This document shows positions 4,053-32,412 of a stretch of DNA of 61,178 bases, piece after piece. The position numbers and the translations under genes were made by a program. Numbering within the stretch: position 1 is the first letter of the stretch; the number at the start of each line of letters is the position of its first letter. A model generated the notes under the pieces. The model was not told where the DNA came from. It saw only the letters and a program-made list of their open reading frames with translations, and did not search any database. This DNA comes from Opitutales bacterium (GTDB lineage: Bacteria; Verrucomicrobiota; Verrucomicrobiia; Opitutales; Oceanipulchritudinaceae): contig JAFIGG010000013.1 in the NCBI GenBank assembly GCA_020831485.1, positions 1 to 61,178 of the forward strand. The letters run 5' to 3'.

Positions 4053-5510
4053 TTAAATTTTCCCGCGACGGGCTTCCAGCTGACTGCGGATTGCCCGGGC
4101 CTTATCTTCCGTGATCGTATAGGAGGCGACCAGCCAGATTGCTACTGCAGAGGCAACGATAGGAATCGCCACATCGAAGAATCGCATAAGAAACAGCGTG
4201 CGCTCGGCCTGATCTCCACCCAACTCGACGTCAAAACCGGTGGCATTCAGCAGAACACCGGACAGCGCCAGGGCAAGAGCCATTCCCAGTTTCACCACCC
4301 ACCAGAAAATCGATCCAAACATTCCTTCCCTCCGACGACCTGTCTCGAGCTCATCGAAATCGCAAACGTCTGCGATCATTGAACCCATCAGGGTAAATAG
4401 GCCACCGAGACCGAACGCAATGAAGGGAGTCGAAACCAGCAGCAACATCGGTGTGGTCTGGCTGTAACAGAAATACTTCAGCGCATATCCAAAAATGGAG
4501 ATACCGATGGCGATAAAAAAGGCTGTTCGTTTTCCCGTCCGGGTAGATATCCAGGTGATCAGCGGGATCACCATAAAAGTGGCGATTGCCGATACCGTCC
4601 CGTTCCAACCCATCAATCGGGAGCCGGCCGACTGATCTCCTGAATAAACGTAAAAAATAATTACATAGGAAGAGAAGGCTGACACCAGCATAAAGCCGTT
4701 AAACACGAGAAAAGTTGCCGCACACAGCTTCAAAAACGGCCTGAAGCGAATGGTAATCAGGAAACCTTTCAGAAAGGCTTTGACCTGACGCATGACCGCT
4801 TCCATGCGGTCCTTGGAGACGATGGATTCCTGGCCCGCTTCAGCCTTCCCCAAGCGCTCCCGGCAGACAATCGCCGGGACAATCCCGACCAAGGCCGCAA
4901 AGACGCCGACCGCAATGGCAAGCCCTCTGGCCCCAGATACCGAATCGTCGAAGAAGCGCTTGTTCTCCATCAACCAATAAAACCAGGGCGCCAGCACCCA
5001 GGCAATCTGGCCCATGAAATTGGCCGTCCCCATGAGGCGAGTTCGCTCATTGTAATCCGGCGTCATTTCGTAGCCCAAGGCAACCCAGGGAGTGGCAAAA
5101 ACCGTGTAAGCCAGATAAAACAGGATGGACCCGCAAAGGAAAAACCAGAAGTAAAAGGTCTGGCTATGGCCCTCCGGCAATTGCCACAGCAGGGCGAATA
5201 CCAGTCCGGCGGCGATTGCTCCTACAAAGATAAAAGGCCTGCGCCGGCCCCAGCGGGTTTTACTCTGGTCCGATACAAAACCCATGATGGGATCGGTCAG
5301 GGCATCCGTCAGGCGCGGTAATGCCATCAGTAAGCCGACAACGGCCGGATTCATTCCCAGTCCCAGATTCAAAACAATCGCCATGACTCCGATTGCCGCC
5401 CCCAGAAGGTTGTTCACCAAGGCGCCCAAGCCGTAAGCCAGCCGCTGCGGTATCGATATGCGGTCTTCAGGGGCAGTCTGTTCGCCAGCGGGAATGCCTA
5501 TAGTACTCAT
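4053..5510 (-). CDS. GPH-family sugar:cation symporter (MFS)
   Basis: A 485-residue polytopic inner-membrane protein with about 12 hydrophobic segments. The N-terminal stretch RLAYGLGALVNNLLGAAIG and the loop LTDALTDPIMGFVSDQSKTRWGRRRPFI are typical of glycoside-pentoside-hexuronide:cation symporters (melibiose/xyloside type). Its ATG overlaps the stop of the upstream phosphorylase gene by four bases (ATGA), indicating translational coupling. The likely role is import of beta-glucan oligosaccharides or glucose-containing disaccharides from the periplasm for the phosphorylase. It is the last gene of the minus-strand glucan operon. Substrate is inferred from context only. Confidence 0.88.
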   Translation of the reverse strand: MSTIGIPAGEQTAPEDRISIPQRLAYGLGALVNNLLGAAIGVMAIVLNLGLGMNPAVVGLLMALPRLTDALTDPIMGFVSDQSKTRWGRRRPFIFVGAIAAGLVFALLWQLPEGHSQTFYFWFFLCGSILFYLAYTVFATPWVALGYEMTPDYNERTRLMGTANFMGQIAWVLAPWFYWLMENKRFFDDSVSGARGLAIAVGVFAALVGIVPAIVCRERLGKAEAGQESIVSKDRMEAVMRQVKAFLKGFLITIRFRPFLKLCAATFLVFNGFMLVSAFSSYVIIFYVYSGDQSAGSRLMGWNGTVSAIATFMVIPLITWISTRTGKRTAFFIAIGISIFGYALKYFCYSQTTPMLLLVSTPFIAFGLGGLFTLMGSMIADVCDFDELETGRRREGMFGSIFWWVVKLGMALALALSGVLLNATGFDVELGGDQAERTLFLMRFFDVAIPIVASAVAIWLVASYTITEDKARAIRSQLEARRGKI

Positions 5511-8500
5511 TGGGGTTGTTTTAGGATGTTTTCCCTCATACTGACCTCTATGTATCCAAGTGACTGATCGCGGGCAAAGACCGACCTGCTCAGCTCACGA
5601 CTGAGTTTGCAACCGCTTATAGTCACGGGATCGCGGTCATTGAAATGAACCTTAATTGCCGGTGCATCAGCGCCCAATTTGCAAACAACCGGAGTCTGAC
5701 AAACAGTATAGGCGAAACTGCCTTTGCCTGCCGTAAGCGAACATTCCCTACCTGCCTTGTTCAGGTAAGAAAAGGTTTGATCCGAACTCAGCAGTTCAGA
5801 TCGGATAAAACTGTGTATCGGTGCAAAATTGAGACAGCCATCGAGAACCCAAACGCCCAGCTCGCCTCTACGGGTCAGGATTTCTTCCTTCACCTGTCCG
5901 GTCATTCCCGGTTGCTGCGCACCCGCGTGCGCGGGCGTGTGCGAATAGGGATCCGTTGGAAAGGCACCATATTCCTGAGCAGACTTGCGATAGCCCAGAC
6001 CGTCCCTGACCCATTGATAATGCTGATCCAGTTTCTCCCTGAGTGCTGTCTCAGCATTCGACTGAACCGCAGCATATAGGTTCTCCTGAACGGCAAGAAG
6101 CAACTTGGACACCATGTGCCAGTAGACGCTGCCAAGGCCCTCGTAGGCGAACATTGAACCACTCCGACCGGTAAATGAGTGGTGGTTGAAAACCACTTCA
6201 TAAATGTCCAGTATCATTTGCCTCTCGCCCTGCAGTTGCGGGTCCTTATCAGCCAGAATTGAATCCAGCCGCGACCGGAGTTGGCCTTCGTTGTAAAGAT
6301 CCGGATGAAAGCGCCAGACAGAATCACTTTCTTTAACCACAAGCCGGGTATCACCCTGCTCGATCATGCCTTTCAACAGATTCGAGCGCAGGCCCATTTC
6401 AGCTGCCAGCTGGTTCTTCCGTAGAAAGGGAGTAATATCACGATCCGGATACAAAAGGTAAGTCTTACGCTTCGAACAATAGAGCGACGAGACCCGCAAA
6501 GATTCCAACAGTTTCACAGACTCAGCAGCATCGAGCATCCCTGCACTAAGAACTGCCACCTGCCCTTCCAACATCGGCTCCAAATAGCGAATATCAGCCC
6601 GATTATCAGTCAGCAGCATGAGGTTGTAGGCGTGATATAGACCATCTTCACGGCGGTTGATCCGAATCGTGTCATCCGCCCATTCGGTGAGGCGCTGCAA
6701 AAATTGGTGGATGCGACTAGCTGAGACAACCGTCTGGCTGCTCGAAAAATCCTCTCGATACGCCAGTGCACGGTAATCCGAACCGGCTTTTCCGAGGGCA
6801 TCGACAATACGCCTTCGACCTTCGGCATCTGTAGCATCGCGTTTGGAGTCTCCTCTACACAGAGCCTCATCAATCGCCTCCAACAACTCCACAACCGGTT
6901 TAGAAACCGTGTATTCTTCGGTCGATTCAGGACTGAAAAACCTGGTCAAAAACTGCTGATGCCGGCGCAGGTAATACAAGGTCACCATGGACAAACCATT
7001 CCCAACGAGGGCATTGTTGGCATCATTCCACTCCGGTCGCTGGGTAGTCATCCAAATGCCACCGCCTGGAACAAAATTGCTCCATTTGGCGAGTATGGGC
7101 ACCAGCAGCTTCTCCAACAGACAGACCAGAGCAGGCATTTCATTCGAACCCCACAACAACTTGCCGTCAGAGCCTTCCGCCGCAGCACGTTCATGCAGGA
7201 GCGCCGACAGCTGCATATCGCAACTCATGGTATTACGCGGGTCCTTCAGTATCGTATCATAATCATGGATACGGTATGGAACATTCGCATACGAATAACC
7301 TTGACGGTGCAAGAGCTTACCGAGCTTTCCGGGCTCATGTGCGTCCATGCACTCCAGTAGCTTCAAAAGATAAATAATCTGGTGATCGCCCCAATAGCCG
7401 TAGGCTGCCCAGGGGTCCTCAGGATCCGGCTCCTCCCAGTCTATGCCTTCCCTGGTAATACGGTAGGGATTGTAGCCGTCAGGCGTTGAGGCGTTGACGA
7501 ATTTGCTGACCATGTGCTCCAGGTAATCCGGAAAACTGAGTGCAAGAGCTTCCCAATTTTGAAAGATGTCCCGCCAATTGCCCTGAAAGGCCAGAATCTC
7601 ATTGCCGTTCGCATCACGTGTCTGAATTTTAAAGCGATTCCAGGGACGGCTCGGATCACCATGCCGACGACTGAACGAAAGCGGCAGGTATTCGAGGAAT
7701 ATACGTTCCAGCTGGGGACATTGCCGCCCTTCTATGCGTTTCTGAAGTTCTTGCCGGTTCAACACCAAGGGCAAAGACGATAACCATTCTTCATGCTCCG
7801 CTACGAGGCGCTTGTTGGACGTTTTGAGAAATGCGACAAAATCATCACGCAGCAACTCGTAGCCGTCGGCAAATATACCACCCCGCATGAGGTTGAAAAG
7901 CACATTGGCCAGGTGGTGAGCCGTCGCAGTCGAGTCTTCACTCAATTGCAAACCATCGGCTGCAGCCAGACGCCTGCGCAGGTTTGATTCACCCCTTACA
8001 ATGTCGTCGTACACCAGATCCACCACCGAATCGGACTGGAGTGTTTTGCCGAGTCGGGCAACACTGGCCTGGTCCAAAGCGGTATCCCCTACCCAGATCC
8101 AGGAAACCGGTTTATCTGAGTTTAATTCCAAGGCTGCAAATTCAACAAAATGGCCACGAACTCCACGGGTCACCCGGGATTCGGCAATTGCCTCACCCTC
8201 ACAGAAGCGGTTGACGGCTTTTGCATCCAGGCTTCTGACCGGTGCGCACAGACCACGGCTCCAAGCCACGGTTGCCCGCAAGGATTCGTGTGGTTCGGGT
8301 TGGTCGGTCAATCCGGATGACATCGAATATACGGCAAGGCCCAATGGTTCAAGTAACTCGTTCTGCTTGTAGGCGTCCGTTAGGCAACTCAGTTCGTTCT
8401 GCAGGCGCTGGGTAACACCCGTTGGCACAAGGTTGCGAACGCCGTGAATCACTTCCAACGAACGCCGACCCTTGGATTCGGTCATCAGTTCGCACTGACG

Positions 8501-8983
8501 CACTAGTCCAAACCGGTCACTGATCATAAGTGTTGAGCGGAAGACCAGACCAGCTACCAAATTGCTTTCCTCGAAGGTCAGGCGTGAACCAAGAATATTT
8601 TTCAACAGGCGGCGTTTTACTTCCGGGCCCGCATCCGGCTTGAACGGCTGCCAGTATTTCCAGGCACCGTCCTCTTTCCAGCGAAACAGAGCAAACGGCC
8701 CCGTGTGTGCTGCGCTGTCGTGAATCCTATCTACGGTCTCATAGGGCAACATGGCGTGATCCGCATCTTCGCGTCCGGCGGTAAGCGATCCTGTTGACGA
8801 AACGAACAGCCAGATATTGGCATCGCTCGTTAAAGAGCAGAAAAACGGTGGTATCTGGTCGTAGTCCTCGATTTCCAGTAGAATCCGGTCGGCATCTTTA
8901 GCACTTGCGGATGAGCTATTAAAGCCAGCTTTGGAATCATTTGTGCGAACCTCGGACTTAAGGGAAGTTGTTAGTGTTGCCAT
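5507..8983 (-). CDS. Large cytoplasmic glycoside phosphorylase, GH149-like (proposed)
   Basis: The 1158-residue product has no signal peptide, so it should act in the cytoplasm. The motif EWNDANNALVGNG (Asp about 654) matches the DWND..N..G motif that holds the catalytic acid of clan GH-Q phosphorylases such as GH94. A second conserved-looking block is GNWRDIFQNWEAL (about 468-480). Length (about 1100-1200) and neighbours (two GH16 laminarinases) fit GH149 beta-1,3-oligoglucan phosphorylase, which converts beta-1,3-glucan and phosphate to glucose-1-phosphate. GH161 or an uncharacterised GH94 relative are alternatives. An ATG at 8983 was chosen because it clears the upstream gene; a start at 9055 would overlap it by 38 bases. 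The gene is coupled to the symporter downstream. Confidence 0.65.
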   Translation of the reverse strand: MATLTTSLKSEVRTNDSKAGFNSSSASAKDADRILLEIEDYDQIPPFFCSLTSDANIWLFVSSTGSLTAGREDADHAMLPYETVDRIHDSAAHTGPFALFRWKEDGAWKYWQPFKPDAGPEVKRRLLKNILGSRLTFEESNLVAGLVFRSTLMISDRFGLVRQCELMTESKGRRSLEVIHGVRNLVPTGVTQRLQNELSCLTDAYKQNELLEPLGLAVYSMSSGLTDQPEPHESLRATVAWSRGLCAPVRSLDAKAVNRFCEGEAIAESRVTRGVRGHFVEFAALELNSDKPVSWIWVGDTALDQASVARLGKTLQSDSVVDLVYDDIVRGESNLRRRLAAADGLQLSEDSTATAHHLANVLFNLMRGGIFADGYELLRDDFVAFLKTSNKRLVAEHEEWLSSLPLVLNRQELQKRIEGRQCPQLERIFLEYLPLSFSRRHGDPSRPWNRFKIQTRDANGNEILAFQGNWRDIFQNWEALALSFPDYLEHMVSKFVNASTPDGYNPYRITREGIDWEEPDPEDPWAAYGYWGDHQIIYLLKLLECMDAHEPGKLGKLLHRQGYSYANVPYRIHDYDTILKDPRNTMSCDMQLSALLHERAAAEGSDGKLLWGSNEMPALVCLLEKLLVPILAKWSNFVPGGGIWMTTQRPEWNDANNALVGNGLSMVTLYYLRRHQQFLTRFFSPESTEEYTVSKPVVELLEAIDEALCRGDSKRDATDAEGRRRIVDALGKAGSDYRALAYREDFSSSQTVVSASRIHQFLQRLTEWADDTIRINRREDGLYHAYNLMLLTDNRADIRYLEPMLEGQVAVLSAGMLDAAESVKLLESLRVSSLYCSKRKTYLLYPDRDITPFLRKNQLAAEMGLRSNLLKGMIEQGDTRLVVKESDSVWRFHPDLYNEGQLRSRLDSILADKDPQLQGERQMILDIYEVVFNHHSFTGRSGSMFAYEGLGSVYWHMVSKLLLAVQENLYAAVQSNAETALREKLDQHYQWVRDGLGYRKSAQEYGAFPTDPYSHTPAHAGAQQPGMTGQVKEEILTRRGELGVWVLDGCLNFAPIHSFIRSELLSSDQTFSYLNKAGRECSLTAGKGSFAYTVCQTPVVCKLGADAPAIKVHFNDRDPVTISGCKLSRELSRSVFARDQSLGYIEVSMRENILKQPQ

Positions 8984-9017
8984 AATCGTATTGGGTGAGT
9001 TATAAATTCGTATAAGA

Positions 9018-10346
9018 TCATTCGACCTTGAATGGAAAATTTGCGGTTGTAGCACTGTTGGAGTCGTTGCGAATAGTTACGAAGAGTCGGTAAGCTCCAG
9101 GCGAATCCGGAGCGCGCACGAGCGCAGTCGGGCCATCGGATTCCACGACAGCCTCCGGATGCTTTGGGGGAATCGGCTCTCGGTCACCACCAACAGAGGG
9201 TTCGGTTTGTTCGGAGATTACCTCCCATGTAAATCGCAGCGGCTGGTCCTGTGGATCCTTCGCCTCAACAAAAACCGGCCACTCAGAACCAGGAGAAATA
9301 CGCTGTAAATGCGCTTCGAACCGCACAGAAATCAGTTCCGGACAACGATTTTCGGGATATTCGCCGGTCCAGGCGTAAGTCATCGCATCCACTGTTGGCA
9401 GTTTTTCACCGCTCTCAAGAAACATTCCATACCAGGTTCCAGTTGTCTCCTGCTTGTGTCCCCAGAGAAAAACGAAAGTCCCCAGACAAAGATCTCCGGC
9501 GTCTGCCATGACGGTCTTGTAGGTATTTAAATACTGCTCGGCCTTCTCGTTCCCGGTCGGTTCCAATGGAGCTCCCCAGTCGGTTTCCGCTACCTCCCAG
9601 TGTCCTCTCGGTCCGAATTCAGCGAGAACAAAGGGACGGTCAAAACCGGCCTGCTTGAGTTGGTCTCCGGTAACAATGGCAGCCGCATAGGCATTGACTC
9701 CCAGTATATCGAAGGCATCGCCGTAGCGCTGGACTTTGGCAATCTTCTCAGAGGTGAGCCCCGCAACCGTTGCCATTACCGGACGGCTTGGATCTGCCTC
9801 TTTGACGATCTCAGCCAGATGGTTCCATTCCTGCCACACATGGGTATCGTCGTCGTCATCCCGAAACGCTTCGACTTCATTACCCAGACCCCACAGCAGA
9901 ATTGCTGGATGATCCCGGTATTTCAGAACGGCTTCGCGAATGCTCTCCCGCTGAGCCTGCACCTGAACAGGATCGCGGTAATCAAAACCATGGCGCTCGT
10001 GTTGCACCCATATCCCCGCAACAACCACAAAACCACGGGCATAAACGTAGTCGAGAAAGGCTTCGCCTTCGATCGTCCGCTCAAGGTCATCAATGCCCCA
10101 AGTGCGCAGCGCATTACCGCCAGCAGCCTTCAACGCCTCGAGTTGCTCGCGCCCCCCTGCGCCGCGAATCTCCAGCACTTCGCCATTGTGGAGCAATTGA
10201 AAGGCCCCGTCGGCAGTACGGATAATCTCTGTCCGTTTCTCATCACCAACACCCTGCCCGCAACCCAATTGCGCTACAGATAGAAGTGATGCACACAGAA
10301 GCGCCAAAAAACCAGTCCCTTTGAGTGATTGCCTCGCGCCCAACAT
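9018..10346 (-). CDS. Clan GH-A glycoside hydrolase, possible lipoprotein (GH158-like or GH2-like)
   Basis: 442 residues. A hydrophobic signal (LALLCASLLSVAQLGC) ends in Cys29, suggesting a lipoprotein although the lipobox is imperfect. A TIM-barrel-like domain follows with LLWGLGNEVE (acid/base Glu157) and FVLAEFGPRG (nucleophile Glu243). A C-terminal Ig-like domain runs from about residue 330 to 442. Barrel plus C-terminal Ig-like domain, size and the 86-residue spacing of the glutamates resemble GH158 endo-beta-1,3-glucanases, but the barrel also resembles GH2 catalytic domains. The start at 10346 lies one base past the GH16 stop; a longer start would overlap that gene by over 120 bases. 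It probably trims imported laminarin fragments in the periplasm. Confidence 0.65.
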   Translation of the reverse strand: MLGARQSLKGTGFLALLCASLLSVAQLGCGQGVGDEKRTEIIRTADGAFQLLHNGEVLEIRGAGGREQLEALKAAGGNALRTWGIDDLERTIEGEAFLDYVYARGFVVVAGIWVQHERHGFDYRDPVQVQAQRESIREAVLKYRDHPAILLWGLGNEVEAFRDDDDDTHVWQEWNHLAEIVKEADPSRPVMATVAGLTSEKIAKVQRYGDAFDILGVNAYAAAIVTGDQLKQAGFDRPFVLAEFGPRGHWEVAETDWGAPLEPTGNEKAEQYLNTYKTVMADAGDLCLGTFVFLWGHKQETTGTWYGMFLESGEKLPTVDAMTYAWTGEYPENRCPELISVRFEAHLQRISPGSEWPVFVEAKDPQDQPLRFTWEVISEQTEPSVGGDREPIPPKHPEAVVESDGPTALVRAPDSPGAYRLFVTIRNDSNSATTANFPFKVE

Positions 10347-10347
10347 C

Positions 10348-11286
10348 TCAATCGACTTTTGGAGTGTTGAGAAAATAGATCCAGGCCCCGGGGATTTGCG
10401 GGCCGCCAGCATCCTCATCGCGCTGGTAAACCCGAACGTATTCAACCTCCATGGTCTGGGGGAAGATACTGTCATCTATGCCCTGCTGGCCGCCCCAGTT
10501 GCCGCCAATGGCTATGTTGAGGATCAGGTGAAAACGCCGATCAAAAGGCCATTCATCCGGTCCGTAGTGCGGCTGCCGCGGAAACTCAAAATACTCCTGG
10601 TCATCCACATACCAGCGAATGGTATCTGGCTCCCATTCAATGGCATAGGTATGGAACGCCGTGGCGACCTGATCGACCTGAATCGATCCACCGCGGTCGG
10701 TACCGATCATGTGGTTGAAACTATTGGTGTGAATCGTTCCATGCACGGTGCCCATGTTGAAGCCAACGTGTTCCATAATATCGATCTCACCACTCGCGGG
10801 CCAACCGCCGTATTCCCAGTCCGTCGGCAACATCCAAATCGCCGGCCAGGTGCCGACTCCCGCAGGCATCATAGCACGCACCTCAATACGCCCATAGAGC
10901 CAGTCACCCTTTTCACGGGTGACCATACGAGCTGAAGTGTAGGCGGAATTGCCCATCGCCTCTTTGCGGGCCTCGATAATCAACCGCCCGTCCTCCACCC
11001 GCGCATTCTCAAGCCTGTCAGTGTAATACTGGGCTTCGTTGTTGCCCCAGCCCACAAGGCCAACCGACTGCCCCGTGCCCAAGTCATAGGACCATTTATC
11101 CGGGTCCGGATATCCATCGGTCTCAAATTCATCACTCCAGACCAATTGCCAGTTTGCAGCGGAAAGGCCCGCAAAGCTGCTGAAAAAGATTGCTGAAAGC
11201 AAAATCCTGCGGGCAGCCGAATGCCAGGTCAAAGGACGTAGAATTAGAGAGGCGATCCCTGCATTATTAATGTATAATATTCGCAT
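10348..11286 (-). CDS. GH16 endo-beta-1,3-glucanase (laminarinase)
   Basis: 312 residues from the ATG at 11286. A hydrophobic export segment (about 28-44, ending FAGLSAA) precedes a single GH16 domain starting WQLVWSDEF. The catalytic motif GEIDIMEHVG gives nucleophile Glu167, assisting Asp169 and acid/base Glu172, the ExDxxE form of laminarinases. WGNNEAQYYTD and PFDRRFHLILNIAIGGNWGG are family signatures. It lacks the C-terminal aromatic tail found on the divergent GH16. It is first in the minus-strand operon GH16, clan GH-A hydrolase, phosphorylase, symporter. A TTG start at 11352 would lengthen the N-terminus by 22 residues and is possible. Confidence 0.9.
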   Translation of the reverse strand: MRILYINNAGIASLILRPLTWHSAARRILLSAIFFSSFAGLSAANWQLVWSDEFETDGYPDPDKWSYDLGTGQSVGLVGWGNNEAQYYTDRLENARVEDGRLIIEARKEAMGNSAYTSARMVTREKGDWLYGRIEVRAMMPAGVGTWPAIWMLPTDWEYGGWPASGEIDIMEHVGFNMGTVHGTIHTNSFNHMIGTDRGGSIQVDQVATAFHTYAIEWEPDTIRWYVDDQEYFEFPRQPHYGPDEWPFDRRFHLILNIAIGGNWGGQQGIDDSIFPQTMEVEYVRVYQRDEDAGGPQIPGAWIYFLNTPKVD

Positions 11287-11400
11287 TATTCTGTATTTTA
11301 TTTGGGTGAAAACAGCAAGGAGCTGATTAATTCCCTTTATAAAGGGGTTCAAGGAGCTTTAAACACAAAAAGAAAGATTTTACCGCTTGACAAGCATTTC

Positions 11401-11423: not shown

Positions 11424-11489
11424 ATTTTTGAGAAATTCCTATTTCCGGGGCTTTCGAAAAGCAAACCAAAACACCCCCTGTTGCTCCTT

Positions 11490-13553
11490 ATGAAAAAAAG
11501 CATCTACATCGCGCTCAGCGCATCGCTTGCCGCATTGAGTGCCACTGCACTCGTTGCTGACACGACACCACCAACCACAGCTTCCCCGGTTCCCACCGAG
11601 CCGGCAGAAGACGTGATATCGATTTTCAGTGATGCATACACAGACGTTACCGTGGACACATTCCGCACGTCTTGGTCCTCCGCAGAATACGAAGAAGTAT
11701 CAATCGAGGGAACGCCGACAATACGCTATACCAATCTAGACTTCGTCGGTATCGAGACAGTCGCGTCCCAAATCGATGCCACCGAAATGGGGACCTTCCA
11801 CATCGACGTATGGACGCCGAACATGGATGTCATTCGCGTCAAACTGGTCGATTTCGGACCGGACGGTGCATTCGGAGGCGGCGACGACACCGAGCATGAA
11901 TTGGCATTCACCGGACTTGCGCAGGGCGAATGGCACAGCCTGGAAATCCCGCTATCGAACTTCTCCGGGCTGCAGAACCGGGCAAATCTCGCACAATTCA
12001 TCATATCGGGCACCCCCACTGGTGCCGGCACACTGTTCGTGGATAACATATATTTCAGCGTTGGTGGTGACGACGGAGAACCCGGTGAAACGCCAGCGGA
12101 ACAACCACCGACACCTGGCGGCTTCGTAGCCAACAGCGACGAAGTGGACTGGGGACAGGTTTTTGTTGCCGCCGGACCAAACAACGTGGCAGAGGACGAC
12201 CTTGAATACCGCCTGTTCTACTCAATTTCTGCAGACGCCCCAAGCGACCCAACAACCGCAAGCCAATACATCTTCGGATCCACAACGGCTGACGGCGGCG
12301 GCACAGGCCCCTTTGGTTTTGTTATCGCTGATCTTGAACCGGGCACAGAATACACATTCTGGCTCTACCAGTACAACACTGCAACCAGCACCTACTCTGC
12401 ACCGGCAACAGCAACCACTACATCAGGCGGCGAACCCGGCACAGCAAACCCTCCGTCGACTCCCGATGGTTTGGTTGCCTCAGATGCAGTCGGCGATGAT
12501 CCGGTTGGATCTGGTGAAATTTTTCTCGCAGTCGGACCCAACAACACGGGCGACGACATCGTCTACCGGCTGTTTTACTCGACAACTGCTACAGCTCCAA
12601 GCGACCCGACCACAGCTAACGAATACAGCTTCGGTGCGACAGCTGGTGATGGTGACGGTATTGCTGCCTTCGGCTTTGTGCTGGGCGGCCTGAACCCCGG
12701 AACCGAGTACACATTCTGGCTATACCAATACGACAATTCATCCAGCCTGTTCTCCAACAATGCCGCAACCGCATCAGCGGTCAGCGGTGGCAGCAACGGC
12801 AACGGCAATGGCAACGGCGGGACACCGGCTCCGACCGCACCAGCGACTGCATCGCCAGTTCCCACGGAACCGGCCGATGAGGTGATTTCGATCTTCAGCA
12901 GTGTATACTCTGACGTGCCAGTGGACACCTTCCGCACAGGATGGTCTGTGGCTGCCTTTGAAGAGGTTATGATCGAGGACGTTCCAACGCTTCGCTACAG
13001 CAACCTGGATTTCGTGGGCATCGAAACCGTTGCTTCGCAAATCGACGCCTCAGGCATGGAATACTTCCACATCGACGTGTGGACACCCAACATGGATGTC
13101 ATTCGCATCAAGTTGGTTGACTTCGGACCGGACGGTGCTTGGGGAGGCGGCGACGACACTGAGCATGAACTCGTTTTCGAAGGCCTCGCGCAAGGTGAGT
13201 GGCACAGCCTGCAGATTCCTCTTGCGGACTTCACCAACATGCTGAATCAGGCAAATCTCGCCCAGTTTATTCTGTCGGGAACTCCCGCCGGCGCCGGCAC
13301 ACTTTTTGTCGACAACATCTACCTCAGCGGCTCAGGCGAGGTCACCACCCCGCCAACGCATTTTGCCGGGTTCCCAATCGACTCCAAAGGCAACATCAAT
13401 ACCGGCGATTTCCTAGGCCCTATCCATGTATCCAGTGCCCCTTGGGTCTACATTTTCGACCTCAAACGCTGGGTCTACATGGTCGACCCCGGAGAAAACT
13501 TCGACGGTTCATGGTCATACTTCGCGAAACCCGAATCCAGTTCCCAGCCGTAA
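11490..13553 (+). CDS. Secreted multimodular glucan-binding protein (CBM-FN3-FN3-CBM-tail)
   Basis: 687 residues with no catalytic domain. A signal peptide (about 1-23, ALSATALVA) is followed by a beta-sandwich module (about 28-190), two fibronectin-III-like modules (about 207-311 and 318-425, each ending PGTEYTFWLYQY), a Gly/Asn linker (NGNGNGNGG), a second copy of the first module (about 449-615), and an aromatic tail (about 624-687). The module, with NLDFVGIETVASQIDA and FHIDVWTPNMDVI, is widespread as an accessory domain in Bacteroidota and Verrucomicrobiota glycan enzymes and is presumed carbohydrate-binding. It lies upstream of a GH16 on the same strand, so it may hold laminarin at the cell surface. 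ATG at 11490 is preferred to a TTG nine bases upstream. Confidence 0.8.
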   Translation: MKKSIYIALSASLAALSATALVADTTPPTTASPVPTEPAEDVISIFSDAYTDVTVDTFRTSWSSAEYEEVSIEGTPTIRYTNLDFVGIETVASQIDATEMGTFHIDVWTPNMDVIRVKLVDFGPDGAFGGGDDTEHELAFTGLAQGEWHSLEIPLSNFSGLQNRANLAQFIISGTPTGAGTLFVDNIYFSVGGDDGEPGETPAEQPPTPGGFVANSDEVDWGQVFVAAGPNNVAEDDLEYRLFYSISADAPSDPTTASQYIFGSTTADGGGTGPFGFVIADLEPGTEYTFWLYQYNTATSTYSAPATATTTSGGEPGTANPPSTPDGLVASDAVGDDPVGSGEIFLAVGPNNTGDDIVYRLFYSTTATAPSDPTTANEYSFGATAGDGDGIAAFGFVLGGLNPGTEYTFWLYQYDNSSSLFSNNAATASAVSGGSNGNGNGNGGTPAPTAPATASPVPTEPADEVISIFSSVYSDVPVDTFRTGWSVAAFEEVMIEDVPTLRYSNLDFVGIETVASQIDASGMEYFHIDVWTPNMDVIRIKLVDFGPDGAWGGGDDTEHELVFEGLAQGEWHSLQIPLADFTNMLNQANLAQFILSGTPAGAGTLFVDNIYLSGSGEVTTPPTHFAGFPIDSKGNINTGDFLGPIHVSSAPWVYIFDLKRWVYMVDPGENFDGSWSYFAKPESSSQP

Positions 13554-13587
13554 TTCTGAGATCAGGCAATTCAAGCAACAGACGAAT

Positions 13588-14685
13588 ATGCGCTTCAAAA
13601 TTCCATTCAGCCCAACGCTCTTAATCGCCGGACTTCTGACGACCGTCACCAGCTTCGCAGCTGGCGGAAACTGGACACTGGTCTGGGCCGATGAGTTCGA
13701 CGTCGATGGTCCGCCTAATCCCGCCAACTGGGATTACGATCTCGGCGGAGGCGGCTGGGGCAACAGCGAGATACAGACCTATACGGACAGTCTCGACAAC
13801 GCCCGCGTGGAAGACGGACGCCTTATTATCGAAGTTCGGCAGAACCGGGAGACAGCGCGCAATGCTTACACCTCTGCCAGGCTGGTGACCCGTGGTCTCC
13901 ATGCCTGGCAGTACGGTCGCATTGAATTCCGCGCCCGGCTGCCAAAAACAACAGGGACATGGTCTGCAGTATGGATGCTGTCTGAAAATGCCATCTTCGA
14001 TGGGGCCTTCTGGCCCGACAATGGCGAAATCGACCTGATGGAACACGTTGGTTACGAAGAAGACCCCCTGTTTCATGCAGTCCATGGCTCGGTTCCCAAC
14101 AACATTCACGGCACCCTGCACACCAAGATGCGCAACCACCTGACCTCGACGGGTCTCGGTGGCAGCACTTTGGTGGAAAACGCGACCGAGGAGTTCAACA
14201 CCTATGCCATCGTCTGGCTTGAAGACCGGATTGAGTTTGAAGTCAACGGAGTTGTCTACAACACCATCCACAAAGCGCAGCAAATACCTGTGCGCAACCC
14301 ACCGGACGACATCAGTCCGTACTGGCCCTTTGACCAGCCGTTTCACTTGATCGTCAACGTTGCCGTTGGCGGTGATTGGGGCGGCCACTTCAACAGTGGT
14401 TTTTATCCGGACGATTCTCCATACGGACCGCTGGGCATTGACCATGACGGTGAATGGCCACAACGGATGGAAATTGAATACATCCGCGTTTACGCACCTT
14501 CCGAAAACGCAGAGAGCTGGTTAGGCTTCCCTGTGCAAAGGGGTTACGCGGACACCGGCGACTGGCTCGGGCCTGTCAACATCTCCAACGCACCCTGGCT
14601 GTATTCTGCAGACTGGGGCTGGTTCAACGCTCCCGAAGAAGCACAGAACGAAACCGGCGGCTGGATCTGGCTTCCAGCCCCTTAA
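13588..14685 (+). CDS. GH16 laminarinase with C-terminal aromatic tail
   Basis: 365 residues. A signal peptide (about 1-24, TTVTSFAAG) precedes a GH16 domain (about 28-305) whose motif GEIDLMEHVG supplies Glu147, Asp149 and Glu152. After the domain (ends IEYIRVYAPS) there is a 55-residue tail containing GDWLGPVNISNAPWLY, shared with the flanking genes. The gap to the preceding gene is 34 bases, indicating an operon. The product should cleave beta-1,3-glucan outside the outer membrane or in the periplasm. It differs from the divergent GH16 by an insertion around NAIFDGAFWPDN and by the tail, so the two are not recent duplicates. Confidence 0.92.
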   Translation: MRFKIPFSPTLLIAGLLTTVTSFAAGGNWTLVWADEFDVDGPPNPANWDYDLGGGGWGNSEIQTYTDSLDNARVEDGRLIIEVRQNRETARNAYTSARLVTRGLHAWQYGRIEFRARLPKTTGTWSAVWMLSENAIFDGAFWPDNGEIDLMEHVGYEEDPLFHAVHGSVPNNIHGTLHTKMRNHLTSTGLGGSTLVENATEEFNTYAIVWLEDRIEFEVNGVVYNTIHKAQQIPVRNPPDDISPYWPFDQPFHLIVNVAVGGDWGGHFNSGFYPDDSPYGPLGIDHDGEWPQRMEIEYIRVYAPSENAESWLGFPVQRGYADTGDWLGPVNISNAPWLYSADWGWFNAPEEAQNETGGWIWLPAP

Positions 14686-14732
14686 AAAAGACAAATTCAT
14701 TTTTTCTCAACCCATAAGCATATACACACACT

Positions 14733-15587
14733 ATGAAAAAACTCCTCAGCATTATCACATCCCTTGGTCTTCTCGCCGCTGCCGGCGCCCAGGCCAACAC
14801 CCCACTGCTCGTTGATCCGACTGACTTCTCCAATGACGGAGAGTGGATCGTTGGCGCCAATCAATTCGTTGCTGGCGACTGGGCCGGCTTCGCTACTCTG
14901 GAAGCCGAAAACCAAGTCAGCGTTTCCGGTGACAGCTTCACGTTCAGCTCCTGGGACGATGGCACCAGCGACATGATCGAAACCTTCCTCTTTCAGGAAT
15001 TCTTCGCAGGACCATCAGACAGCCCTTGGCCAAACACCCTTTTCGCCACGGGCGACGAAATCGTGTTCACCGGTGAAGCCAGCGCTACCCGCAGCGGACC
15101 CAACACCGGAAACATGACCGTTCGGGCATTCATCAAAATGCTTGGCTACAATGAACTCGGCTGGGAATTCCAGACCAAAACTGCACAATCAGACTTTTTT
15201 CCGATTGGCAGCAGCAACGAAGCCTTCGAATTGCGGGTAACCTTCCCTGACCTCGCAGAAGACGACAGCTTCCAAGTACTGCAGGTTGGTTTTGAAATCA
15301 CCACACAGTTTAGCAGCGGCGACATGAACAGCGGAACGATCACCTTCAGCAATATCGACGCTCACATCGTTGGCGACGGCACCGATCCGGACCCTGAAGT
15401 GACCTACGCAGGCATCGTCGTCGACAGCCATGGCAACGTCGACAGTGGCGACTTCATGGGACTGCTCCACGTTGCCCACGAGCCATGGGTTTACGTCTAC
15501 GACCTGAGCCGCTGGATCTACATGCCGGACCCAGGTGACGACTTCGCAGGCGCTTGGGCATTTGTCCTTCGGCCTTCCGCAGACTGA
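14733..15587 (+). CDS. Secreted beta-sandwich protein with aromatic tail
   Basis: 284 residues. The signal peptide (about 1-21) ends AAAGAQA. The body is beta-rich (SVSGDSFTFSSWDDG; FEITTQFSSGDMNSGTITFSNIDAHIVG) and resembles carbohydrate-binding jelly rolls, without catalytic motifs. The last 60 residues contain GDFMGLLHVAHEPWVYVYD, the tail also present on the two preceding genes. It lies 47 bases after the GH16 and ends in a strong terminator, so it is the third gene of the plus-strand unit. Probable role: glycan binding at the cell surface. The exact family was not recognised. Confidence 0.65.
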   Translation: MKKLLSIITSLGLLAAAGAQANTPLLVDPTDFSNDGEWIVGANQFVAGDWAGFATLEAENQVSVSGDSFTFSSWDDGTSDMIETFLFQEFFAGPSDSPWPNTLFATGDEIVFTGEASATRSGPNTGNMTVRAFIKMLGYNELGWEFQTKTAQSDFFPIGSSNEAFELRVTFPDLAEDDSFQVLQVGFEITTQFSSGDMNSGTITFSNIDAHIVGDGTDPDPEVTYAGIVVDSHGNVDSGDFMGLLHVAHEPWVYVYDLSRWIYMPDPGDDFAGAWAFVLRPSAD

Positions 15588-28705: not shown

Positions 28706-29572
28706 ATGAAAAATCTGCACACTCTTATCTTCACCTGTGGCTTGGTATGCCCTATGGTCCCAGCGTTCGCTTCGGTCAGCTTTAACAGTATCGGCCAGAC
28801 TTATTCACAAAACTTCAATACCTTCGAAGGAACAGAGACCAGCCTGCCAGACAATTGGTCCTTTGAAGGCGATGGAACGGACATTTTCCGCGGCGTTTTC
28901 AATTCCAGCACCGATTCCGCCAGCACCTTCACAGGCGTCATGGCTGCCACCAATGGCAGCTCCGGCAACTCCATCGTCTGGCGTGAATCCACCGGTGGAG
29001 CAAGTCTCGACGATTTTCGCCTGATTCTCAGTGTGACCAACAATACCAGCACAGCCATAACCAGTTTTGAATACCAATACACTCTGGAAACTTGGGTCAA
29101 CGGACGCCGCGACAACGAACTGCGCTTCAAATACGACACCATTCTGGATGATACCGCCGCCGACCGCGGCACTTTCGAAAACGACATCGTCGCACGGAAC
29201 TCTCAGTTCACCCAAAACCCTAATCACACCCCGATCGCATCGAATGGCGAACAGTTTGTTTTGGACGGCACTCAAGCAGCCAACCAAACCATCGTTTTTG
29301 GCACATTGGACCTGACAACTTTTCTAATTGATGAAAGCGACCCCAGTGCGGGAGTGTTCGGCGCACTTCAACCCGGCGAAACCGGCTATTTCCGTTGGCA
29401 GATTTCCAACAACCAGCTGACCGACGGCAATCGTTCCGCCTTAGGCATCAATGATCTCTCCCTGACCGCCATCCCCGAACCCCGCGTATACGCCTCGCTT
29501 GCTGGTCTGTTTGCATTTACATGGGTCGTCTACCGGCGGCGTGCTCAGGTACACAAAGCCATTGAGGGTTGA
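28706..29572 (+). CDS. PEP-CTERM sorting-domain protein
   Basis: 288 residues. The signal peptide (about 1-22) ends VPAFAS. The body is beta-rich and rich in Ser/Thr/Asn (FNSIGQTYSQNFNTFEG), without known catalytic motifs. The C-terminus carries the full PEP-CTERM pattern: IPEPRVYASLAGLF, a hydrophobic helix, and the basic cluster YRRRAQ. This is recognised by an exosortase that anchors or processes proteins for extracellular matrix or cell-surface display; no exosortase gene is in this window. The Pho-box-like promoter directly upstream suggests induction with the porin. The autotransporter-repeat gene starts 33 bases downstream and is probably co-transcribed. Confidence 0.88.
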   Translation: MKNLHTLIFTCGLVCPMVPAFASVSFNSIGQTYSQNFNTFEGTETSLPDNWSFEGDGTDIFRGVFNSSTDSASTFTGVMAATNGSSGNSIVWRESTGGASLDDFRLILSVTNNTSTAITSFEYQYTLETWVNGRRDNELRFKYDTILDDTAADRGTFENDIVARNSQFTQNPNHTPIASNGEQFVLDGTQAANQTIVFGTLDLTTFLIDESDPSAGVFGALQPGETGYFRWQISNNQLTDGNRSALGINDLSLTAIPEPRVYASLAGLFAFTWVVYRRRAQVHKAIEG

Positions 29573-29604
29573 ATTCCACGCAGCTTTCCTACAGAAGAAG
29601 AACT

Positions 29605-32412
29605 ATGCTTCCGAACATCCCAAAACCTTACTTTGCCTGCCTTCTGGGGCTTGCGAGCATCGGATTCTCTACTATTGGGTCCATCCACGCGAGCTCCGGC
29701 TTGCCACAGAACCTGCCCGAAGGCCTACCTTCCGGACTACTCCTCAGCCCCTTCGTCGCCGACCGTGTCTGGGTCGAGCGCTGGGGCTCAAATGACGACT
29801 GGGCCAACAACGGCGTCTGGCTTACAGGCAACCAGGTGGGTGAACAGGTCGACGTCAACTTCGACAACAGTGTCCTTATCAACAACCGCAATGTCTACCG
29901 TGAAGACGACTACGATGGAACCGGCCTGGCGCTGCAGGAGATCCTTCCTAAACCCGGCTTTCCGGACAGTCCTGGCATTTCCGTCTGGGTTGGAACCGCA
30001 GAGCCCGAGGGCACTTCTGGGAATGACAATGTCGATGTTGGCGGAACCTTTACCATTGGCTCTTTGACTGTACAGAACGTCTCCGCAGGAGTCGGACGTA
30101 GTTTCCGCAATGGAGGCACACTTGTTTTCGACAGCGGCGACGCTGAAACCCCCGCTCGGATCGTTCATTTGGGTGATGAAAGCAGCGACGGTGATGACTT
30201 CAACATCCGTGAAGGAACAAGCTTTCAACTGAACAGCCCAACTGAGTTCTATTTGCTCAATACCGGCTCCCGCTTCCGTATCCGCGACAATTCGGCGATA
30301 ACGGGGACTGGCAACCTCATCCTCAATCCGGGCAACGCACCCAGCTATAACGGGGCAGAAACCAGCCAAGGATCCGAAATTCAGCGTGAAGTGCGAATTG
30401 AAGACACTGGCCGCATCTCCACCACTGGCGAGATCCAAATCGGCGCCGCCCGCATCCGCATCGTCGACAACGCCGACATCATCAGCGCATCCGCCATCCA
30501 CATTCACCCTGAAGGCCAGCTCCGTTTGGAACGCACGGGCACGGTCAGCTACGACCTCGGTGATGGCACCATTTTCCTCGACAGTGAAGGCCATCGGATG
30601 GACGACGAAAGCAACGGCGCCATCCGCCAGCAGGCCAACACCGTCAATGACACCGCCACCGTCAGCAATCCGATCACGGTTGTTGGCGACTCCCGCGTCC
30701 ACAGTCGCGACGAGGGCAACCTAGTGCTCGGTGGTGACATCGATGGCGAAGGTGAACTGCGTAAAACGGGTGATGGCCTTCTGCGCCTCAGCGGTGTGAT
30801 CAGCAATGAGGGTGGCTTGGACATCACCAACGGAACGGTGGAGATCCTCTCGGCCAATCGCCTCAACAGCGTTCCGCTCAAATTTGGAACTCGTGAAAAC
30901 CAGCGCAAACTGGTCCTCAACGGAAATCAAACAGTTTCCCTGCTCGATGGCGAAGATCTCGACCCCAGCGATGCAGGCACGTCCAGCACACTGGAGCTTG
31001 AACTGCAAGGCAGCACAGTGCTGACCGTCGACCAGGCCTTCAGCTGGGATGACGACGAAGAGGCAAGCACGCGCTTCCAGGGAACTATCAGTGGCAGTGG
31101 CAGCCTGGTGAAAACCGGTGACGGCACCCTGCGCCTGACACGCTGGGCCAAGACCTATTCCGGCGAGACCCACATCGAAGAGGGTGTATTGGAAGTCTCT
31201 GCATCGGCAGCCCTTGCCGAAAGCAGTGGCATCACTGTGCTCGACGGTGGCCAACTGCGCCTGACCACCAGTGGCAGCGATGTGCAATACAGCTTTGGCG
31301 GCCCAATTGTTTTGAATGGCGATGGACGTTCCGCTGCGGTCGGCACAGGACAAGGCCTGGGCATCCGTGGGGCCCTCCGTTACGATCCCGGCAGCGGCGC
31401 CCAACAGGCGACCGTAGCGAGTGCAATTGAACTGGCCTCAGACGCGGGTCTGCATGTGGACGGTGCGCAGAAGATCATGCGCCTTACGGGGGTGATTTCC
31501 GGTTCTGGAGGTTTTGTCAAAAGCGGCGGTGGAGACCTGATCTTGCACGCCGACAACAGCTATGCCGGCGACACGGTTATCGAAAACGGACGGCTTATCA
31601 TTCAGGGCAGCCATTCGGGCAGCGGCACGGTTTTAGTCCTGTCCGGTGCCCAGCTCGGCGGCACCGGCAGCATCGCCGGTGACCTTGAAATCGGCGGAGA
31701 CTTTAGTATCCCCTTGGGGAGTTCCACTTTTTCGGTCGGCGGCTCAATGGTCCTGGAATCCAGCGCCCGGTTGGCATTTGACCTCGACGAGCAGTCAAGC
31801 GAAACTGCACGGCTCAGCAGTGGCGGATCGGTCACCATCGACTCCGGTGCAGATTTGGAACTGCACGGCAGCATGAATGCCGGCAGCTACACAATCCTCA
31901 GTTCAGCAAGCGGCATTCAGGGTATCGAGAACCTGAGCGTCTCCGGCCTGGCAGGATCCGGTTTGGCCGCGAATCTATCGGTTTCCAACGACGACTTGGT
32001 ACTCGAACTGTACAGCGAAGACGGCAGCGATTTCCCAATCTTCAATTTTGTTGGTCCAGTCACTCCCGGCAGCCAGCCCGACACCTTCATCTCCGAATGG
32101 TTCGGTGAAATCCGCGTCCTCAATATCAGTGACGACGGAACCACCGCCCTCTTTGAACAGGCCAAACTCGGTGCCCTCTGGACGCACAGCGCCCTGGTTT
32201 CTGAAACCGGAACGTGGTTCTACTCCGCAGAAAGTCGTTCCTTCACTTTCACTGGTGAGAACACTTTTCCATACGTCTACCGCCCCGCCATTGGCTGGGT
32301 CTGGTATGCCGCCAGCGATACAAACTACCGCTGGCTCTTCAACCTTGAAGACGAATCCTGGTACGCCGAAACGCGCACCGAACTCATTCTGGTGAGCCCA
32401 GCACAGGACTGA
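29605..32412 (+). CDS. Autotransporter-associated beta-strand repeat protein with aromatic C-terminus
   Basis: 935 residues. The signal peptide ends GSIHASS. The body is a beta-helix with passenger-type repeats such as GELRKTGDGLLRLSG, GSLVKTGDGTLRL and GGFVKSGGGDLIL, each followed by a GxTxIxxGxL-like turn. There is no C-terminal autotransporter barrel and no PEP-CTERM signal. Instead the last 110 residues are rich in Trp, Tyr and Phe (FPYVYRPAIGWVWY, RWLFNLEDESWY). Such barrel-less repeat proteins are common in Verrucomicrobiota and are probably surface adhesins or matrix proteins. ATG at 29605 is chosen because the in-frame TTG at 29569 overlaps the previous stop. Confidence 0.85.
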   Translation: MLPNIPKPYFACLLGLASIGFSTIGSIHASSGLPQNLPEGLPSGLLLSPFVADRVWVERWGSNDDWANNGVWLTGNQVGEQVDVNFDNSVLINNRNVYREDDYDGTGLALQEILPKPGFPDSPGISVWVGTAEPEGTSGNDNVDVGGTFTIGSLTVQNVSAGVGRSFRNGGTLVFDSGDAETPARIVHLGDESSDGDDFNIREGTSFQLNSPTEFYLLNTGSRFRIRDNSAITGTGNLILNPGNAPSYNGAETSQGSEIQREVRIEDTGRISTTGEIQIGAARIRIVDNADIISASAIHIHPEGQLRLERTGTVSYDLGDGTIFLDSEGHRMDDESNGAIRQQANTVNDTATVSNPITVVGDSRVHSRDEGNLVLGGDIDGEGELRKTGDGLLRLSGVISNEGGLDITNGTVEILSANRLNSVPLKFGTRENQRKLVLNGNQTVSLLDGEDLDPSDAGTSSTLELELQGSTVLTVDQAFSWDDDEEASTRFQGTISGSGSLVKTGDGTLRLTRWAKTYSGETHIEEGVLEVSASAALAESSGITVLDGGQLRLTTSGSDVQYSFGGPIVLNGDGRSAAVGTGQGLGIRGALRYDPGSGAQQATVASAIELASDAGLHVDGAQKIMRLTGVISGSGGFVKSGGGDLILHADNSYAGDTVIENGRLIIQGSHSGSGTVLVLSGAQLGGTGSIAGDLEIGGDFSIPLGSSTFSVGGSMVLESSARLAFDLDEQSSETARLSSGGSVTIDSGADLELHGSMNAGSYTILSSASGIQGIENLSVSGLAGSGLAANLSVSNDDLVLELYSEDGSDFPIFNFVGPVTPGSQPDTFISEWFGEIRVLNISDDGTTALFEQAKLGALWTHSALVSETGTWFYSAESRSFTFTGENTFPYVYRPAIGWVWYAASDTNYRWLFNLEDESWYAETRTELILVSPAQD

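Follow-up and report, generated by a model that had tools for sequence, protein, structure and literature searches.

Three adjacent plus-strand genes in a contig of an Opitutales bacterium (Verrucomicrobiota; assembly GCA_020831485.1, contig JAFIGG010000013.1, positions 1 to 61,178 of the forward strand; this whole stretch of 61,178 nucleotides is called the window) encode a protein with parts resembling carbohydrate-binding modules (CBM), a glycoside hydrolase of family GH16 and a small beta-sandwich protein, and all three end in a common domain of about 58 residues that is rich in aromatic amino acids. The domain is carried by secreted proteins with very different bodies, lies mainly at their C-termini, is confidently predicted to fold, and alternates with the PEP-CTERM anchor signal on homologous bodies. 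From these observations we infer a surface location, a binding function and a ligand for the domain, and the explanation that we somewhat favour is that it is a folded, non-covalent module for retention at the cell surface or in the matrix, used in place of PEP-CTERM.

The short aromatic domain: sequence, fold, position and bodies

The three genes and their copies of the domain are located as follows.
11490..13553, plus strand: secreted protein with two similar CBM-like beta modules (by reading), an fn3 domain (match) and the short aromatic domain at its end; the open reading frame spans 11481-13553, and the ATG at 11490 is the likelier start by inspection
13356..13550, plus strand: short aromatic domain copy 1, C-terminus of the CBM-like protein (E 1.7e-37, the copy itself being inside the profile)
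13588..14685, plus strand: secreted GH16 with the short aromatic domain at its end (Glyco_hydro_16, E 1.4e-18); start 13588 is likelier than 13426, by inspection
14512..14682, plus strand: short aromatic domain copy 2, GH16 C-terminus (profile match)
14733..15587, plus strand: small secreted protein with the short aromatic domain at its end, kept in sister metagenome-assembled genomes (MAGs); no significant Pfam match
15399..15584, plus strand: short aromatic domain copy 3, the copy modelled by AlphaFold2 (as 15396-15584; pLDDT 94.0, pTM 0.80)

The cores GDFLGPIHVSSAPWVY, GDWLGPVNISNAPWLY and GDFMGLLHVAHEPWVY are found at the ends of the three open reading frames. The tails share 13 invariant columns, and two of them are 37 and 47% identical to the first. 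A profile built from them matched 18 places at E < 0.004 in the 3.86-Mb genome. Once the frames were read out, 16 of these places proved to be short-form matches, located in 15 proteins, and the other two to belong to longer kin. Because 13 of these short-form matches (E 1.2e-15 to 2.1e-5) lie beyond the window copies, the likeness of the tails is more than chance, and chance is likewise ruled out by the profile E-values in the relatives. The common tail reported in the first-pass annotation of this DNA is thus real; the residues that were said to precede its core as D/N-x-[TS] read instead [DN]-[TS]-G-D. Eleven of the 13 further matches end at the stop or at most 6 residues before it; of the other two, one leads a tandem pair and one is near an N-terminus. 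In the genome, 14 of the 15 proteins end with the short domain, and the remaining one (L008/L057) has it directly after an apparent signal peptide.

Alignment of 114 of the 134 unique short copies (duplicates and copies below 40 bits were dropped) gave the consensus W-A-G-[YF]-P-[VI]...G-.-V-D-T-G-.-[WF]-L-G-.-L-.-V...P-W-V-Y-S...L..W-.-Y-.-P...G-A-W-.-[YFW], with the last Trp kept in 114 of 114. These copies contain about 20% Trp, Phe and Tyr and 1% Lys, and have a mean net charge of -5.8. None includes a membrane-like stretch, the highest mean hydropathy of any 15 residues being 1.36, which rules out a membrane anchor; anchoring by a lipid on a Cys within the domain is also ruled out, as Cys occurs in only 2 of the 114. 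In family libraries, 15 short copies found only DUF7183 in Pfam at E up to 10 (1.2) and a best E of 0.049 in NCBIfam, none significant, and neither these isolated copies nor 36 of the longer kin described below matched Pfam CBM or CW_binding models. The titles and abstract starts returned by literature searches describe no such domain, and the words 'C-terminal' and 'PEP-CTERM' are absent from the main text of the Verruconatronum paper (PMC13274419). Judged by these searches, the short domain is absent from the family libraries consulted and would thus be uncatalogued.

The short domain is predicted to fold alone, a question that the first-pass annotation had left to structure prediction: AlphaFold2 modelled the window copy with 114 sequences at pLDDT 94.0 and pTM 0.80. 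Foldseek against the PDB listed seven matches to this model, the best at E 6.5 and none at E 0.001, and none of 14 chains realigned with VIA-align reached Z 2.

The position of the domain was analysed in 110 short-form proteins and 69 long-form ones; 60 stretches were hand-picked from the listed part of the relatives' matches and the loci are mostly best matches, so the position counts are biased towards strong copies. Among proteins whose stop was in hand, 101 of 103 of the short form terminate no more than 15 residues from the domain, and 57 of 64 of the long form have it at the C-terminus. The other seven of the 110 have no stop in hand, and five of these run on for more than 100 residues. 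Over both forms, 21 proteins were not shown to be C-terminal, and in 14 of them the domain begins at most 80 residues from the start of the open frame. Such near-start copies are found, for the short form, in L008/L057, L089 and twice in L111, and for the long form in ten cases (e.g. L031, L163, L167, L203, L212). The remaining ones are internal or near the end, those of L086 and L087 being internal and that of L086 being followed by an apparent fn3 domain; L048 was also counted among the short copies near the N-terminus or inside. In L031 and L163 an apparent fasciclin-type domain (by reading) follows the long domain. Two short copies occur in 22 of the 110 proteins. Therefore, the strictly C-terminal position that would mark a sorting tag did not hold; the opposite outcome, copies inside proteins at arbitrary positions, applies to few proteins at most (of the 110 short-form proteins, 9 were not shown to have the domain at the C-terminus).

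The bodies joined to the domain are diverse. Single-linkage clustering grouped 108 of them into 50 clusters, a number that can be inflated by the many bodies truncated by the 1.5-kb flanks; 34 are singletons and the largest hold 19 and 10, the former joining GH16 and small-protein frames by a provisional link. Descent with GH16 only, one of the refuting outcomes named in the first-pass annotation, is ruled out by these 50 clusters. In 90 tailed sequences chosen out of 112 for the family-library scans, Pfam and NCBIfam recognized GH16, GH10, GH26, rhamnogalacturonan (RG) lyase PL11, pectate lyase, heparinase and CBM6/35/96, together with PQQ-type dehydrogenases, CotH, beta-helix, TSP3 repeats, and choice-of-anchor and DNRLRE families, and no single Pfam family was present on more than 6 of the 90. 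By a crude rule, signal-peptide-like starts are present in 81 of 97 proteins with the short form and in 28 of 33 with the long form; for other open reading frames of the window, membrane proteins included, the figure is 17 of 31.

Exchange with PEP-CTERM on homologous bodies

The fetched DNA was searched for tail-less kin of the tailed bodies, which gave 23 frames, some of them ending in a PEP-CTERM-like manner. In pairwise alignments the homology reaches approximately to the junction, after which one protein continues with IPEP, a helix and basic residues and the other with the aromatic domain. The short domain and PEP-CTERM occur in this way on the same body in at least three body families, judged from 14 rows listed out of 18, the best pairs being 73% identical over 238 amino acids, 58% over 190 and 35% over 300. 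In another body family a weak long domain is set against PEP-CTERM (33% over 231), and in two families the short domain is set against the long one (25-35% identity). Pfam confirms PEP-CTERM on two of the exchange partners.

One body family (A10) was followed across the 17 genomes of the window's own family, where it has 14 matches in 4 genomes. Three members end in the aromatic domain, five in PEP-CTERM (two of them weak members, 33-38 bits) and two in neither; 5 of the 15 rows are frames running off the locus, at least 3 of which look like truncated copies of other rows. In the window's genome, contig C3 holds three proteins of this family within 5 kb, two with the domain and one with PEP-CTERM. 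One frame of the family (L269, 361 residues) shows yet another type of end, with no anchor but with the C-terminal stretch FLYQLRGTSDFNSWTDLGTAQPGTG...

The short domain does not share the defining properties of PEP-CTERM itself. The Pro-Glu-Pro motif, membrane helix and basic cluster at the C-terminus are not what the 114 short copies present, and exosortase and the short domain are not consistently present together among 89 relatives. Exosortase is found in 66 of these 89, and many of the 66 lack the short domain; G008 carries the short domain and gave no exosortase match, but this genome is 94% complete, so that the absence is not certain. Exosortase does not track the short domain; it was the sole export gene tested for the co-occurrence suggested in the first-pass annotation, and none is linked to the domain. 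Among the 21 NCBIfam families matched by the 90 tailed proteins (E 0.001), models for PEP-CTERM and for the sorting domain of the type IX secretion system (T9SS), which we take to be TIGR04183, are absent, in agreement with the earlier statement that the tail lacks features of both. One tailed protein matched T9SS GldK at 3.5e-4, a component other than the sorting domain.

Longer kin, distribution and genomic neighbourhood

A second, longer domain is found elsewhere in the window.
29569..32412, plus strand: PATR (passenger-repeat) protein with the long-form aromatic domain at its end (PATR E 2.2e-17)
32083..32409, plus strand: copy of the long-form aromatic domain (length about 95-110 residues), distantly related to the short one by profile comparison (pLDDT 90.6, pTM 0.78)

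Its style is WFGxF...GWIYH..HGWLYV......WFWD...GWLWT...YPYLY....WLYY....R.FY......W. When the short and long profiles were compared, they aligned over 40 columns with a probability of 96% and E 3e-9, a result repeated with a second alignment; two unrelated bodies used as controls scored 0.2% (A10) and 0.5% (A6 body), and 20 column shuffles, a weak control, gave 0.1 to 3.5%. By this profile comparison the long, order-wide domain is a distant relative of the short one. The end of the PATR protein had been described as a looser version of the same tail; the kinship stands, and the end is properly a copy of this second domain (E 4.6e-19 with the long-form profile, the copy being inside it). AlphaFold2 with 36 sequences predicted eleven strands for the window copy. 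Foldseek against the PDB listed a best match at E 0.29, none at E 0.001, and the best VIA-align hit is a designed barrel at Z 4.6, within the tool's middling warning range. At E up to 1, the 36 copies hit five Pfam families unrelated to CW_binding, each through a single copy (best E 0.0062, OST-HTH), and NCBIfam gave a best E of 0.5, none significant.

The long form has 27 matches in this genome at E 0.001 and is present in 49 of 133 relatives, covering nine families of the order, eight besides the window's own, with at least 38 matches in one genome. In phylum samples, where for both forms 13-18 candidates were scored per genome, a 9-row long profile matched 5 of 288 genomes and a 36-row profile 9 of 387, including two that do not belong to the order. 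In the window's genome, three frames of 2896-3978 residues (L026, L027, L028) on contig C97 end in similar long-form domains (66-82% identity), preceded by apparent Ig-like repeats (by reading).

The short form is distributed differently. A 16-copy profile at E 0.001 matched 21 of 89 relatives: 16 of the 17 genomes of the window's own family, each with between 2 and 39 matches, and a further five genomes. Of these five, four match weakly (best E 3e-4 to 7e-4) and one strongly. The latter (G076, an order relative of family f5) has three short-form matches, best E 3e-17, the only strong ones outside the own family among the 89, which may stem from transfer or mis-binning; it also holds at least 38 long-form matches. 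In the phylum sample, 4 of 387 genomes matched at E 1e-4, and every one of these belongs to the window's own family. The short domain is largely confined to one family of Opitutales, which supports the earlier suggestion that the tail may be peculiar to this group.

The named records for the protein of the third gene are five Opitutales MAGs and one contig labelled Salinarimonadaceae. Two of those MAGs carry 'CSSed' sample names, presumably from soda-lake sediments, and the domain-bearing group is probably one of soda-lake Verrucomicrobiota. The Salinarimonadaceae contig (L160, REDO01000203.1, 3.6 kb) has a piece of the third gene's body at 55% identity, query residues 18-129; our guess is that it is mis-binned Opitutales DNA.

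The three tailed genes belong to an apparent beta-glucan locus, which comprises two GH16, a GH2-type protein, a TonB-dependent receptor, a major facilitator superfamily sugar transporter and a LacI-type regulator. The neighbouring GH16 (10348-11352, minus strand) is 60% identical over 246 residues to a tailed GH16 (L109) and ends in a short stub, ...GAWIYFLNTPKVD, which resembles the last strand of the domain only and is possibly a truncated tail. Beside the glucan genes, 5507-9055 (minus strand) encodes a 1182-residue protein with no Pfam match at E 0.001. Directly upstream of the long-domain PATR protein, the protein of 28706-29572 (plus strand) has a PEP-CTERM-like end (IPEPRVYASLAGLFAFTWVVYRRR).

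Proposed function and comparison with known systems

Retention at the cell surface or matrix is probable because the domain stands where sister proteins carry a PEP-CTERM anchor. The tailed proteins, with their signal-peptide-like starts, would be exported by Sec first and would then pass to the outside. A small, independently folding, acidic, Trp/Tyr-rich beta domain at the protein end may bind some component of the surface or extracellular matrix of the producer itself; the simplest candidate would be a glycan contacted by exposed aromatic residues. Through this binding, glucanases, lyases, beta-helix proteins and PATR proteins would stay close to the cell, the domain taking the place held by PEP-CTERM on sister proteins, and the longer order-wide form probably acts in the same way.

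Several observations weigh against a retention module. The support for it comes from sequences and models, and several of the tailed proteins are polysaccharide-degrading enzymes, so that substrate binding is possible. The exchange rests on four body families, the best sampled of them mostly on two contigs and with two proteins that have neither end, and the destination of PEP-CTERM proteins was itself inferred in the available part of the founding paper (PMC1569441). A proline/acid linker is not a general feature in front of the domain (9 of 97 versus 4 of 97 in the control), and a general disordered linker is thus ruled out. The Pfam choline- and cell-wall-binding models do not match the domain. 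A PDB sequence search with the short profile counts in favour of retention, as it found 7pl5, a putative endo-beta-N-acetylglucosaminidase that we take to be the LytB choline-binding module, at E 3.3e-5 over several stretches and 0.034 for the best stretch; this match is weak, and unrelated-looking proteins scored alike, namely 6xi1 (flagellin hook-motif) at 3.2e-5 and 7obi (designed repeat) at 0.0084.

Three other explanations compete with retention. The domain could be a folded C-terminal export or sorting signal, T9SS-like, recognized by an outer-membrane machine that exports the protein and may cleave the domain off. The C-terminal position in 101 of 103 proteins, the many diverse bodies in one genome and across the family, and the exchange with PEP-CTERM, itself a putative sorting signal, would be expected from it. 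However, a signal read at the C-terminus is not expected to work near the N-terminus or inside a protein, as in L057, L089, L111, L086 and L048, or doubled as in 22 of 110, whereas a binding module would; the sorting-domain models are absent from the matched NCBIfam families, and no cognate machine was identified, exosortase being the only one tested and T9SS genes not having been searched for. We regard such a signal as unlikely, while giving it real weight. Of the roles that the first-pass annotation offered (sorting, surface attachment or glycan contact), surface attachment fits the PEP-CTERM exchange, and a strictly C-terminal sorting tag does not fit the N-terminal, internal and doubled copies.

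A carbohydrate-binding module that aims enzymes at their substrate, beta-glucan or another polysaccharide, and not at the producer's surface would account for the abundance of conserved aromatics, for the company of GH16, GH10, GH26, RG-lyase PL11, pectate-lyase and heparinase families, and for the polysaccharide-degradation genes at the window locus and on contigs C3 and C33. It accounts less well for a single domain shared by enzymes acting on chemically different polysaccharides, for its presence with CotH, PQQ-type dehydrogenase, choice-of-anchor and DNRLRE families and with bodies without family match (14733-15587), and for its exchange with an anchor signal on homologous bodies; this explanation is judged rather improbable. 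Finally, an acidic, almost Lys-free domain in terminal position would suit a haloalkaliphile as an end-cap or assembly domain, stabilizing or oligomerizing beta-rich secreted proteins at high pH and salt with no surface ligand. Since homologous bodies carry PEP-CTERM in its stead and the longer kin extends to eight other families of the order (whose habitats were not considered), an end-cap appears very doubtful.

If retention is the correct reading, a broader proposal can be advanced tentatively: Opitutales may possess, beside PEP-CTERM, a second, uncatalogued surface-display system in which two related folded aromatic domains attach tens of exported proteins in each genome to a single shared constituent of the surface or matrix, a Gram-negative counterpart of the choline-binding proteins, possibly with a fold unseen among solved structures. 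In our judgement, it is largely an open question by what means Gram-negative Verrucomicrobiota retain their giant secreted proteins and numerous enzymes of polysaccharide degradation at the cell. An end-domain with up to 39 short and at least 38 long matches per genome would mark a large hidden surface proteome, would suggest a testable role for proteins that belong to no known family, and could find use as a display module that tolerates alkali. Moreover, the PEP-CTERM exchange on neighbouring paralogues makes the role directly testable.

The T9SS C-terminal domain is likewise folded, of similar size and placed at the C-terminus of many diverse exported proteins, where it is strictly terminal and single. 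The aromatic domain has no match to that sorting domain and has N-terminal, internal and doubled copies in a minority of proteins. An octamer repeat of aromatic residues, the OCRE domain of RBM5, forms a beta sheet, according to the available part of its description (PMC5127646); that protein is a eukaryotic splicing factor and the likeness is of pattern only.

Pneumococcal choline-binding modules (CW_binding) are borne by hosts unlike the Gram-negative lineage of the aromatic domain, and they form long repeat arrays instead of one or two copies. The Foldseek matches listed for either form of the aromatic domain include no CW_binding chain, which leaves a shared fold possible. Membership of the domain in this group is not claimed because the Pfam models fail and unrelated-looking proteins score like 7pl5. 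The two are nevertheless alike in being rich in aromatics and mounted at the ends of diverse secreted proteins, mostly C-terminally and sometimes N-terminally; the pneumococcal modules are usually C-terminal, and N-terminal in LytB and LytC, as far as the accessible part of the source goes (PMC4929436). A described isolate of Verruconatronaceae (GTDB family T3Sed10-336), which is likely to be the window's family, has phosphatidylcholines among its dominant lipids, in the available part of its description (PMC13274419), so that a choline-type surface ligand might be imagined, at a very low probability.

The exchange of ends on one body also has precedents, as body families with alternative GlyGly-CTERM, LPXTG or PEP-CTERM tails appear in the part of the literature source available (PMC3237569). 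Those tails consist of a short motif, a membrane helix and a basic cluster, whereas the aromatic domain is by prediction soluble and folded. With respect to PEP-CTERM and exosortase in particular, the aromatic domain differs in having no membrane helix, in its length of about 58 residues, in its predicted fold and in that it can be N-terminal, internal or doubled; it resembles PEP-CTERM in its C-terminal location, in the many diverse secreted bodies that carry it in each genome, and in its occurrence in the same genomes, on homologous and sometimes neighbouring proteins.

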